From NCBI GenBank assembly GCA_033763895.1, contig JANRJQ010000010.1:624146-688145 (forward strand): 64,000 nt of DNA, given 5' to 3'. Position 1 is the first letter of the stretch. Each line of letters starts with the position of its first letter. The notes under the pieces are model-generated. The model worked only from the letters and a program-made list of their open reading frames with translations. It did not search any database and had not been told where the DNA came from. Shown here piece after piece: positions 17,486 to 26,991 of this stretch. The position numbers were made by a program, and so were the translations under genes. This DNA comes from Chloroherpetonaceae bacterium (GTDB lineage Bacteria > Bacteroidota > Chlorobiia > Chlorobiales > Thermochlorobacteraceae).

Positions 17486-17998
17486 ATGAAAATTTTATCA
17501 ATTTTTTTACTTGTTTTTCTCTCAGCCTCAAGTGTTTATGATATTCCTGTAAATACGATAGAAGGTAAAACCTCGAAGCTTTCAGAGTATAAGGGCAAGG
17601 TTATTCTTGTTGTAAATGTTGCCTCAGAATGCGGCTACACCCCTCAATATGCCGAGCTTCAATCGCTGTATGAGGCATACGGTGAAAAAGGGTTGGTCGT
17701 TGTGGGGTTTCCTTGTAACGATTTTGGTGGTCAGGAACCGGGCGGTTCTGAGGAGATAAAAAAGTTTTGTTCCACCAATTACAAAGTTACTTTTCCAATG
17801 TATGAAAAACTTTCAATGCAGCATCCGCTTTATCAGTATTTAACTGAAAATGCGCCGGAAAAGGGGGCTGTAAAGTGGAACTTTGAAAAATTTCTGATTG
17901 GAAAGGATGGAAAAGTTCTCGCGCGTTTCCGAAGCAGAGTAAAGCCGATGAGTGAAGAAATGAAAAAATCAGTTGAAGCAGCTTTAGCGGCAAAGTAA
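17486..17998 (+). CDS. Exported glutathione peroxidase family protein (cysteine type)
   Basis: A peroxidase that reduces hydrogen or lipid peroxides. The 170 residues begin with a short signal-like segment (ILSIFLLVFLSASS), so it likely works in the periplasm. The peroxidatic residue is a cysteine, C49 in NVASECGYTPQY, not selenocysteine. The rest of the tetrad is present: Q83 in GGQEPG and the tryptophan of KWNFEKFL. The segment PCNDF around C77 also matches. Bacterial cysteine forms usually take electrons from thioredoxin rather than glutathione. A terminator shared with the convergent bchH gene follows. Confidence 0.92.
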   Translation: MKILSIFLLVFLSASSVYDIPVNTIEGKTSKLSEYKGKVILVVNVASECGYTPQYAELQSLYEAYGEKGLVVVGFPCNDFGGQEPGGSEEIKKFCSTNYKVTFPMYEKLSMQHPLYQYLTENAPEKGAVKWNFEKFLIGKDGKVLARFRSRVKPMSEEMKKSVEAALAAK

Positions 17999-18000
17999 AG

Positions 18001-18025
18001 AAAAGCGGGGTTAACCCGCTTTTTT
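18001..18025. terminator. Bidirectional terminator between the peroxidase gene and the bchH-like gene
   Basis: AAAGCGGG (18002-18009) pairs with CCCGCTTT (18015-18022), with A and T runs at the two ends. It overlaps the stop codon of the bchH-like gene, so that gene ends by design here. Confidence 0.85.
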
Positions 18026-20465
18026 ATTTAACGATTAGATTTTCTACCAGCGATTTACAAAACGCCTCGATCTCGCTCTTTTTAGCGATTGCGCGTTCAT
18101 CACCTTCTTTTGCTTTTATGAAAATATGATGAATATCATCAATCCCGTTGGCTTTTGCAGCAAGGTGAAGCAATCCAAGTTCGTGTTGATTTTTGAGCGA
18201 CTCAGTAATGAGTTCGGTCATCGTTTCAGCATTTGGATTTTCGCCAAATGTGTGTAAATCAGCACAAATTAATCGGGCTTCCATTTGTTTCAGATAAGCC
18301 ATCACATCAGAGATGTAACGATTGTAATCGGATTCTTTGAGAAGCGGATTAATGTCAAGCTCAATGCCAAGTAAAGAAACCTTGATTGATATTGCACGAC
18401 GGAGTTCCTCACTATCTCTACCAATTCGATAATCATCAATCAAATCTTTTAACGCTTGAAATTCTTTATAAAGACCTGCTCTTGCATAAGGTGGAATTGC
18501 ATGTGAAATTATAGTTGAATAACCTCGCCTTTTCGCAATGTTCGCCTCTGAGGGGTTATTCATCGGATAAATGTAGAACTGAGGCATTGCCCCAAGCAAG
18601 CTATCTGACCAACAGTTATCAGAAAGCCCTAATTGAAGCCCGGGCATCCATTCTGAAGTTCCGTGCATGCCAAAATGAATAACGGCATCTGCCTTAAAGT
18701 GGCGATCGAGCCATTTATAAAACATGATATACTGATGATGAGGCGTGTTTTCTTTATCAAAAAGCAATCGCATCGGATCGCCTTGAATAAAGAGTTGAGG
18801 TTCAGGGCCGATATAAAGATTGCCAAAAACAAAACCACCTAGTATGAATTGATCCTTTCCATATAGTGAAAGATCTCCGGGAGTTGCTCCCCAACGCGCT
18901 TCAATTCTAGATTCATCCTTTTCAGAAATCCATTCACGATAATTTTTCAGTGAGGCAAGAATTGGTGATTCCTCTGCTTTTAACTGTTGCGCGATTCGAT
19001 CGCTTTGCAGCGAAGCGTTCAAGTCTTCAAGAAAGGATTCTGGGTTTTGTTCATATCGCTCAAGAAAATCGCCTGTATCATATCCTTCTCTTTGAAGTGA
19101 TTTGACAATATTCAAGAGGCTATTAGGAACTTGCAATAGTGCTGCGGTGCCGATTTTACCTTGATTTGGCGGGTAGTTATAGAGAACAATGCCAATTTTT
19201 TTCTCATGATTTGATTTCTTTTTGAGAGAAATAAATTTTGAAAGTTGAGCAATCAGGCGGTTCAACCTTGTTTTTCGGATGGTAATCTTTTCATTTTCTA
19301 AAGCTCCTAATACCACCGGAGAGACAGCACCATCCATTTCGGGTAACGAGAACATAATCATTGATTGAATCGGGTTCACCCCGTGCTTTTCCCAGCTTTC
19401 TTCAGATTGAACAAATAATGGTTGAGCAACAATGTAAGGGGAATTGATTTCGCTGAGGATTTCTTGAGCGGAGGGATTGGCTAATCCTGCTTTGGTTGAC
19501 CCTGCTGGTCCTCCCACCAAAGGAAATCCAAATAGATTTACGATTGAATCAACCTTTAATTCGCGAAACCAAGTTCGTGCAACAATGTGAAGTTCAATAC
19601 CAAGTGCATAACAAGCGAAAACACGAAAACCCGCTGCTTCAAACCCTTTGATAACTTCATTTGGATAGGTTTGTCCGGTAAGAATATGCTTACGAGAAAA
19701 AAGAAGCCCAACTTTTGGTTTTTTTTCATCCAAACGACCCGATTTCTTTTCCCACTTCGTGTAAGATTTGATATCGTGGAAAAAGGATTTTTCAGAAGCA
19801 TAATGCTCGGGATGATAAAGGCCATAGGATTGAAATTCTTTTGGAGAATCATACTTAATTTTTTTTCCGAAGAGTTGATTGGCGGTATAAAGCAACATAT
19901 TGATAATGTTTTCTTCGCCGTTATTTGTCCAATAGGTGCCAACCGTCATCCAAACCCGTGCATCATGAAATTTTTCACCCCCGAAACTTTCGGGCATAAA
20001 TTTCATAATTCGATTAGTCATTTTTTGCAACTGAACAAATCCGTAAAGAGCGTCTTCCTCTTTTCCACCACCAATTAATTGGGCAATTCGCTTGACCGGT
20101 TTTGGAATTTCGGACTTCTCAGAAAATGAATAACTCCCTACTTTGTTTTGCTTCATCACAGAAGGCAATGATTCAAAACCAAACACAATTGGAGGAGAAT
20201 ATTTTTTGATTGAGTCAACTAAAATTTCCGCTGATTCATCAATGACCATCAAAGCTGAGAATACCAAATCGCTCTCAGAAATCACTTGCTCAAAACGAGC
20301 TCTATTTTCAATCAGCTCGGTATCATGAAAAACATTAAGTGTAAATTCAGGGCAGAGCGTTTCGAATTGCTTTTTGATCGAGAGAAAGAGATCGGTGTTA
20401 TAACGCTCCATACCGAGTACAATGGTAAAAAGGCGCTTTCGATTGGATTGGGAAAGCAAACTCAT
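18024..20465 (-). CDS. bchH: BchH-family magnesium chelatase large subunit, C-terminally shortened
   Basis: BchH binds protoporphyrin IX and, with BchI and BchD, inserts magnesium in the first committed step of bacteriochlorophyll synthesis. The 813 residues align with the start and middle of the family: N-terminal VLGMERYNTDL, LVGGPAGSTKAGLANP, LYNYPPNQGKIGTAA, then H601-G-T-S-E605-WMPG and NNPSEANIAKRRGYSTIISH. The last two read as BchH rather than CobN. Full-length BchH, BchS and BchT have about 1,200-1,300 residues. The last third, with its conserved PTGRN region, is absent, and the gene runs cleanly into a terminator. The start is well placed, with AAAGGAG ahead of ATG 20465. It could be a pseudogene remnant, a split subunit or a shortened paralogue. 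I see no BchI, BchD or other bch gene nearby. Confidence 0.85.
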   Translation of the reverse strand: MSLLSQSNRKRLFTIVLGMERYNTDLFLSIKKQFETLCPEFTLNVFHDTELIENRARFEQVISESDLVFSALMVIDESAEILVDSIKKYSPPIVFGFESLPSVMKQNKVGSYSFSEKSEIPKPVKRIAQLIGGGKEEDALYGFVQLQKMTNRIMKFMPESFGGEKFHDARVWMTVGTYWTNNGEENIINMLLYTANQLFGKKIKYDSPKEFQSYGLYHPEHYASEKSFFHDIKSYTKWEKKSGRLDEKKPKVGLLFSRKHILTGQTYPNEVIKGFEAAGFRVFACYALGIELHIVARTWFRELKVDSIVNLFGFPLVGGPAGSTKAGLANPSAQEILSEINSPYIVAQPLFVQSEESWEKHGVNPIQSMIMFSLPEMDGAVSPVVLGALENEKITIRKTRLNRLIAQLSKFISLKKKSNHEKKIGIVLYNYPPNQGKIGTAALLQVPNSLLNIVKSLQREGYDTGDFLERYEQNPESFLEDLNASLQSDRIAQQLKAEESPILASLKNYREWISEKDESRIEARWGATPGDLSLYGKDQFILGGFVFGNLYIGPEPQLFIQGDPMRLLFDKENTPHHQYIMFYKWLDRHFKADAVIHFGMHGTSEWMPGLQLGLSDNCWSDSLLGAMPQFYIYPMNNPSEANIAKRRGYSTIISHAIPPYARAGLYKEFQALKDLIDDYRIGRDSEELRRAISIKVSLLGIELDINPLLKESDYNRYISDVMAYLKQMEARLICADLHTFGENPNAETMTELITESLKNQHELGLLHLAAKANGIDDIHHIFIKAKEGDERAIAKKSEIEAFCKSLVENLIVK

Positions 20466-20595
20466 AGGTAACTCCTTTATTTAATTCCTTAAAAACTATC
20501 TTTGGAATATCATGTTCATTTCTATTGAAATTTAAACATAAAGTTTTGAAATATTCGCGGTTTATGAAAGTTCATTTCAATTTGACACTCATTCA

Positions 20596-21252
20596 ATGAT
20601 TGGGAAGAGAAAAAGAAATTGGATTGAGTTTCCCTTTAAAAAGGAATTGCAGAATGCATTTCTTCTGATTGTTATTACTGGTTTGCACTCTTGTCATTTA
20701 TTTCAAACAAGAGAACCTGAATTTCCGGATAATTTTGTTCCTGCCGAATTGGCTTGGAAGCCTTCAACGACATCCGATCAAGTGCTCCTTAATTTTGCGA
20801 ATGCGTTTTCGAGTCTAAATGCCATTGATTACTTACGATCGTATCTCCCAGAACCTACAACAGATAATCTTATGCAAGCAGAATTTACTTTCTCAGCTGC
20901 TCCAGAGACTCAAGGGGTAGCACCGCTAATTTTTTCAACTTGGGATGTATTTGCCGAAAAGAAGTTTTTTGAAAATTTTAGAAATCAAGTTTCTACACGA
21001 GTTCCTCCAAGGGTCATTTTTCAAGTAACTGAGCGAACTCCGACAGCGTTGAATCAAATTCAATTTGTCATTAGTTATACGATTATAATACTATATCGAA
21101 ACGGTTCAGCAGAAGAGCGTTTTGAAGGAAATGCGGTTTTGATTCTCAATCAATCTTCACAAGGGTTTTGGTGGATTCGGGAGTGGCGAGATTTCAGAAA
21201 TACCAATTCTGGATTTGCTTTAAGCGATTTAAAGCTTCGGCACTTCAATTGA
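20596..21252 (+). CDS. Putative lipoprotein of unknown function
   Basis: A 218-residue protein I do not recognise. A basic N-terminus (KRKRNWIEFPFKKE) leads into a hydrophobic stretch (FLLIVITGLHSC) whose final LHSC resembles a lipobox, so it is probably a lipoprotein. The mature part is mostly predicted beta strands with many aromatic residues; the end has GFWWIREWRDFRN, as in small NTF2-like or SnoaL-like cone folds, but I cannot confirm that. Its last 24 bases overlap the end of the convergent REC-GGDEF gene. Confidence 0.6.
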   Translation: MIGKRKRNWIEFPFKKELQNAFLLIVITGLHSCHLFQTREPEFPDNFVPAELAWKPSTTSDQVLLNFANAFSSLNAIDYLRSYLPEPTTDNLMQAEFTFSAAPETQGVAPLIFSTWDVFAEKKFFENFRNQVSTRVPPRVIFQVTERTPTALNQIQFVISYTIIILYRNGSAEERFEGNAVLILNQSSQGFWWIREWRDFRNTNSGFALSDLKLRHFN

Positions 21253-25759: not shown

Positions 25760-25905
25760 AGCGATGAAATGATATTCAAAAGGATGACAGTTTCAGTATA
25801 TTAAAGGCTGATTGTTTTTTCAATCAGAAGTTACTCAAACTGAATTTCTCTTCTTGAGAAATTAATCGAGAAGTAAGTAAAACATTTTTGGATAAAGAAT
25901 ATTCT

Positions 25906-26991
25906 ATGCTAACTAACGATTTAGTTTTGCGATCCCTTAGGCGCGAGCCTTGTCACCGAACGCCAATTTGGGTGATGCGTCAAGCGGGTCGGTATCTCCC
26001 TGAATATCGAGCTGTTCGCAGAAAAGCCGACTTTTTAACTTTATGTAAAACACCCGATTTAGCGGCTGAAGTGACCGTTCAACCCGTTGATCTTATTGGT
26101 GTCGATGCTGCGATTATTTTTTCAGATATTTTGGTTGTGCCCGAAGCTATGGGAATGCAACTTGAAATGATTGAATCAGAAGGACCAAAATTCCCCAACC
26201 CAATTCGATCTGCTTCGGATATAGAACGATTAATTGTCCCTGATGTCTCGCGAGCGTTGAGATATGTCGAAGATGCAATTAGGGTTTCCAAAAGAGCCTT
26301 AAATGCAAGGGTGCCGTTGATCGGGTTTGCTGGTGCACCTTGGACTCTTTTTACATACGCTGTTGAAGGGAAAGGAAGCAAAAACTTTCGCTATCCAAAA
26401 GAAATGATTTTTTCACAGCCACGCGAAGCTCACCGAATGCTCGAAAAAATTTCGTCAGTGGTTGCTGATTTCCTTTTGCTCCAAATCGAAGCAGGCGCAA
26501 ATGCCGTGCAAATATTTGATACTTGGGCTTCAGTTCTTTCAGAGCAGCATTTCGCTGAGTTTTCGTTGATGTACATTCAAAAGATTGTGCAAAAGATTAA
26601 ACTCAAACACCCAAAAGTGCCTGTAATTGTTTTTGCGAAAGGAGCAAATACGCTTTTAAAGGAGTTAACCGAAACAGGTTGCGACGCACTCGGACTTGAT
26701 TGGACTGTGGAATTGGCAAAAGCACGGTGGCAACTTTCTGATAAAGTTGCTTTGCAAGGAAATCTTGATCCAACAGTGCTTTACTCGACTCCTGACCGAA
26801 TCAAAGCAGAAGCAACAAAAATATTGAAGTCATTTGGTCAACACAATGAAAATTCAGGTCATGTTTTCAATTTAGGCCACGGTATTTTGCCTGATGTTGA
26901 CCCTGCAAACTTAAAAGCACTTGTCGATTTCGTTAAAACCGAAAGCGTGAAGTATCATGCACACTTTGCCGAAAAATCAAGTTTGAATTGA
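25906..26991 (+). CDS. hemE: Uroporphyrinogen decarboxylase
   Basis: Decarboxylates uroporphyrinogen III to coproporphyrinogen III, the branch toward haem and chlorophyll. The ATG at 25906 gives 361 residues beginning MLTNDLVLRSLRREP; the longer in-frame start is a TTG and adds nothing conserved. PIWVMRQAGRYLPEY holds the catalytic arginine region, AAIIFSDILV has the conserved aspartate, and GFAGAPWTLFTY and LGHGILPDVDP are standard. It is followed one base later by rfbC. A link with the bchH-like gene 5 kb away through tetrapyrroles is possible but not shown. Confidence 0.96.
   Translation: MLTNDLVLRSLRREPCHRTPIWVMRQAGRYLPEYRAVRRKADFLTLCKTPDLAAEVTVQPVDLIGVDAAIIFSDILVVPEAMGMQLEMIESEGPKFPNPIRSASDIERLIVPDVSRALRYVEDAIRVSKRALNARVPLIGFAGAPWTLFTYAVEGKGSKNFRYPKEMIFSQPREAHRMLEKISSVVADFLLLQIEAGANAVQIFDTWASVLSEQHFAEFSLMYIQKIVQKIKLKHPKVPVIVFAKGANTLLKELTETGCDALGLDWTVELAKARWQLSDKVALQGNLDPTVLYSTPDRIKAEATKILKSFGQHNENSGHVFNLGHGILPDVDPANLKALVDFVKTESVKYHAHFAEKSSLN

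Follow-up and report, generated by a model that had tools for sequence, protein, structure and literature searches.

A magnesium-chelatase H subunit probably encoded as two unlinked halves in three genera of one family of the Chlorobiales

The window analysed here is a stretch of 64,000 nucleotides from contig JANRJQ010000010.1 of a Chloroherpetonaceae bacterium (genome of 3.55 Mb in 14 contigs, 99% complete), and its minus strand carries an intact gene of 813 codons, open from its ATG in the sequence and the list of open reading frames, for the N-terminal part of the magnesium-chelatase H subunit. H is the catalytic subunit, of ~140 kDa, of the enzyme with which (bacterio)chlorophyll synthesis starts, and acts at the committed step. 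The features of the locus are the following:

17486-17998, plus strand: glutathione peroxidase gene, convergent with the N-half gene
18001..18023, minus strand: terminator hairpin directly after the N-half stop, with a 9-pair stem that includes 5 G-C pairs
18024..20465, minus strand: N-terminal half of the split magnesium-chelatase H subunit, 813 aa, with PF02514, TIGR02025 and ChlH matches
18546..18548, minus strand: codon for Glu640, equivalent of the ChlH active-site residue E660, in NNPSEAN (from alignment to 4zhj and to 6yt0 and 6ytn, the E660D/E660W variants)
18651..18653, minus strand: codon for Glu605, equivalent of the ChlH active-site residue E625, in HGTSEWMPG (from alignment to 4zhj and to 6ytj, the E625K variant)
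20472..20478, complement: ribosome-binding site AAAGGAG in the sequence, 6 nt upstream of the ATG

The N-half gene is monocistronic, with its own ribosome-binding site and a terminator that probably also serves the convergent peroxidase gene. It is located at C10:642172-644082, in the interior of a 978-kb contig, and so does not mark an assembly end. Divergent from it, at 20596-21252 (+), is a 218-aa open reading frame with no Pfam match, and hemE (uroporphyrinogen decarboxylase) is found ~5.4 kb away, at 25888-26991 (+), in a separate transcription unit.

In profile searches the N half aligns with positions 2-655 of the 1090 of PF02514 (540.8 bits), corresponding to the first ~63% of H, and with positions 3-772 of the 1271 of TIGR02025 (718.9 bits), and it covers chain residues 66-804 of the ChlH structure 4zhj (E 5.5e-117). 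The two glutamates listed above correspond to the residues that were mutated in the solved active-site variants of ChlH (6ytj, 6yt0, 6ytn), and the PTGRN motif is absent. The protein is 58-61% identical to the standalone N halves of related genomes. Its AlphaFold model is of middling confidence (pLDDT 73) and matches ChlH by Foldseek (E 3e-33), but the global superposition is poor (TMq <0.4), and we therefore claim no domain arrangement from it. The model's confidence is lowest in the conserved loops of the active site (560-570, 602-612 and 635-665), as one would expect of loops that the C half brings into order; we take this as no more than suggestive, as low model confidence has other causes as well.

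A search of the organism's own genome revealed three H-type loci: the N half of the window, a standalone C half and a full-length H. The C half, of 481 aa, is encoded at C7:140777-142150 (+), inside a 525-kb contig; it contains PTGRN and aligns with positions 627-1089 of PF02514 (542 bits), positions 824-1271 of TIGR02025 (654.7 bits) and chain residues 923-1350 of ChlH. Both halves exceed the gathering cut-off of PF02514 (24.5 bits). The curated cut-off of TIGR02025, 829 bits, refers to one polypeptide of ~1270 aa, and each half scores below it as a single chain, so that we class the window protein as one part, the N-terminal one, of a split variant rather than as a BchH equivalog. The full-length H (C4:898333-901590, 1267 aa; L001:1021-4824) has a long branch (0.64) and is 58% identical to its relatives in the family, those relatives being 79-94% identical to one another; because it is fast-evolving, its position in the tree is less sure.

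The break between the halves lies in a linker that measures 53-69 residues in the full-length H proteins of the order. The N halves end 12-25 residues past one conserved anchor and the C halves start 33-57 residues before the next, the gap between the two TIGR02025 matches (772 to 824) being this variable linker. Together the halves cover the whole of H, with no homologous segment lost at the break. Isolated C-terminal stretches of ChlH are available as solved structures (6ys9, 410 aa; 5ewu, 388 aa), which fits an autonomous C-terminal module.

The unlinked pair is present in five genomes from three green sulfur bacterial genera of one family: the window genome (G000), GBChlB (G001; JPGV01, 100% complete), and three genomes of Thermochlorobacter (genus g3), namely G002, G004 and Ca. 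Thermochlorobacter aerophilum (G006; PHFL01). GBChlB has been described as a hot-spring member of the Chlorobi that is photosynthetic and probably aerobic (PMC4161750). A survey of 98 genomes from the order found a standalone gene for such a C half in these five only, and the matching N type in the same five and in G010 of family f3, where it is a fragment cut by a contig end and the C part was not found. The halves are never adjacent, being on different contigs or, in GBChlB, ~24 kb apart, and their gene neighbourhoods differ between genera; both observations rule out a local rearrangement. A coproporphyrinogen oxidase gene of the hemF type follows the C half directly, in the same direction, in G004 and G006 (L059:7662-8390 and L061:10076-11005). 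Apart from genes truncated by a contig end, all other H genes examined consist of one uninterrupted open frame.

The initial annotation had described an intact N-terminal part that ends at a terminator and a convergent peroxidase gene, and had argued against an assembly break and against a fresh frameshift with the remainder nearby. All of this is borne out: both genes are inside large contigs, the pattern recurs in five genomes, and the remainder lies on another contig or, at the closest, the distance given above for GBChlB. Its proposal to look through the whole genome for the missing C-terminal part led to the standalone gene; the comparison with relatives that it suggested returned the same split under purifying selection, and an adjacent C fragment, which would have pointed to local rearrangement, was seen in none of the five genomes.

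Full-length H accompanies the pair in the window genome and in G002, and it is the only form, with both halves absent, in genus g4 (G003, G005, G007, G008). In GBChlB, G004 and G006 full-length H was not found. The genome data contain sequence gaps, such as the 9.5 kb of consecutive N that interrupt bchL in G025 (C1; L208:1502-11001), and G022, G034 and G048 gave no BchL although one was expected there; for these reasons our statements of absence are provisional. With the same reserve, no BchM above the TIGR02021 cut-off and no BchH of the Chlorobiaceae type were found in G000-G008 and G010 (families f1 and f3), and within this set BchL scores above its cut-off only in Thermochlorobacter. Adjacent genes for this type of BchH and for BchM occur in G022 and G009. 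The missing BchM and BchL were not counted as evidence, given that control genomes lack an expected BchL too, probably because of the sequence gaps.

Trees built separately for the two halves recover the N halves as one clade and the C halves as another, each with an SH-aLRT of 100, and the inner branching is the same in both, with the window genome first, then GBChlB, then Thermochlorobacter. Both halves fall on the BchS/BchT side of the family, separate from the BchH type of the Chlorobiaceae and from the full-length H of their own family. In the N and concatenated trees they stand beside the H proteins of the Chloroflexales (support 93 and 91, not starred), and the C tree leaves the placement open. 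An H of Chloroflexus has been named bchS/T-like (PMC9316378), in agreement with this placement. Judging from these trees, a single fission before the divergence of the three genera would be the simplest account.

Both halves evolve under purifying selection, with pairwise ω of ~0.03-0.08 wherever dS could be estimated, which are rough values given that dS is near or at saturation. The columns that are invariant in 31 full-length H proteins are kept to 93-96% in the N halves and to 97-99% in the C halves; for comparison, the full-length Chloroflexales clade, when left out, keeps 89% and 94% of the invariant columns. The N half evolves faster than the C half, and in two genomes its frame is shifted, by one base missing in an A-run in G004 (L058:8655-11074) and by two missing bases in G006 (L062:8786-11204), which may reflect sequencing error or recent decay. 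As for the partners, BchD scores above its cut-off in 12 of 12 genomes tested, with BchI-like AAA+ matches beside it or elsewhere. FmoA is present in the family (only as a short piece in G008), and an open reading frame for a PscA-like reaction centre occurs in all tested genomes except G006. BchI/BchD and FmoA are also found in GBChlB, G004 and G006, the genomes in which the pair is the only H detected. Taken together, the selection, the conserved residues and the presence of chelatase partners, FmoA and reaction-centre genes point to a working enzyme and speak against both decay and a loss of phototrophy.

We consider the best explanation, with a probability of roughly 0.8, to be an ancient single fission of a BchS/T-like H gene that gave rise to a working H subunit made of two polypeptides. 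The gene would have split once, in the ancestor of the three genera, at the linker preceding the C-terminal module, and its two parts are now unlinked genes. Non-covalent association of the N and C polypeptides most likely produces an H-like body around the active site, to which the N part would bring the glutamates E625/E660 and the C part PTGRN and the rest of the body. Such a rebuilt H would work with BchI and BchD, inserting Mg2+ into protoporphyrin IX. In ChlH, domains of the body bind the integrin I domain of ChlD (PMC6604950). Formation of the heterodimer and catalysis by it are what the conserved sequences lead us to expect, and in GBChlB the pair would presumably be the only H. It need not be the main chelatase of the window genome, which also has the full-length protein.

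This coexistence, seen in G002 as well, together with the position of the pair on the BchS/BchT side of the tree, could mean that the pair is functional but accessory, a BchS/BchT-like heterodimer that tunes flux or one pigment branch while the full-length H does most of the chelation. We find this unlikely, since GBChlB, G004 and G006 show the pair only and genus g4 the full-length H only, so that either form appears able to serve alone. The faster evolution of the N half and its frameshifts in two of the three Thermochlorobacter genomes would suit a decaying relic, both halves being remnants of a broken H gene, but decay is very improbable in view of an ω of ~0.05, albeit at saturated dS, the retention of 93-99% of the invariant residues, and an architecture common to three genera, with frames that are otherwise open and no further indels among G002, G004 and G006. 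The initial annotation had rightly taken the intact frame as an argument against old decay, although it had listed a relic in a lineage losing phototrophy among three possible meanings; strong purifying selection on both halves and the presence of phototrophy genes speak against that one.

Another of the three meanings was a shortened H paralogue that has taken on a new role; the version considered here, in which it would act without the C half, could draw on the N half being a monocistronic gene with its own signals. It now appears highly improbable, given that the active-site residues are kept and that in five of five testable genomes the N half comes with a conserved and complementary C half, which is absent together with it in genus g4 and shares its branching order. 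The meaning that held was the remaining one, a split H with its C half encoded elsewhere, the C half being present in the same genome and the same split in four more. As for a covalent rejoining of the halves into a normal H, by a split intein or trans-splicing, split inteins typically occur where the halves of a protein are encoded by unlinked genes. Yet the 12-25 and 33-57 residues at the break add up to about an ordinary linker, leaving no room for intein halves; a split intein is ruled out by this length, and we give rejoining as a whole almost no credence.

Within the preferred reading, an ancient fission with a working two-part H, the split might also be adaptive, separate expression of N and C providing a control point for an H that works under oxygen. 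The lineage has no Chlorobiaceae-type BchH and, if its apparent absence is genuine, no BchM, the neighbour of that BchH, either; the pathway would then begin with Mg chelation and the subsequent methylation by rebuilt, non-canonical machinery. This extension is speculative, and we hold it to be rather unlikely.

Compared with BchH/ChlH (TIGR02025, 4zhj), the pair shows whole-length sequence similarity once the halves are combined, so that all regions of H are encoded by the protein set, along with equivalents of E625/E660, PTGRN, and BchI and BchD as partners in the genome; the difference is that here two polypeptides are produced from unlinked genes. The closest full-length relatives are BchS/BchT of Chlorobium and the S/T-like H of the Chloroflexales (e.g. 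Chloroflexus islandicus, L086), which share 39-45% identity with the N halves and 52-61% with the C halves and lie on the same side of the tree, but are single chains of ~1270-1300 aa. CobN (7c6o) and the heme dechelatase HmuS (9d26) are members of the same PF02514 superfamily, and the N-half model matches both by Foldseek. Both are much weaker matches than ChlH, with 164 and 158 versus 395 bits for the N half and at most 232 versus 399 bits for the C half. An identity as CobN was rejected, as the N half scores 264 bits with TIGR02257 versus 719 with TIGR02025, and in the trees both halves fall among the H proteins, with CobN as the outgroup. No natural split of BchH/ChlH was found in the literature searched, with the main Thermochlorobacter paper (PMC3446795) outside that search. 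The two-part H would work like BchH/ChlH.

A stable natural break marks a site at which H tolerates being cut while remaining under selection, and it bears directly on the question of whether the C-terminal part is an autonomous module. Being smaller, the split halves could also help structural studies of an enzyme that is still poorly understood. For the phototrophs of this family, automated annotation that scores the halves below the BchH cut-off may call them chelatase-deficient.
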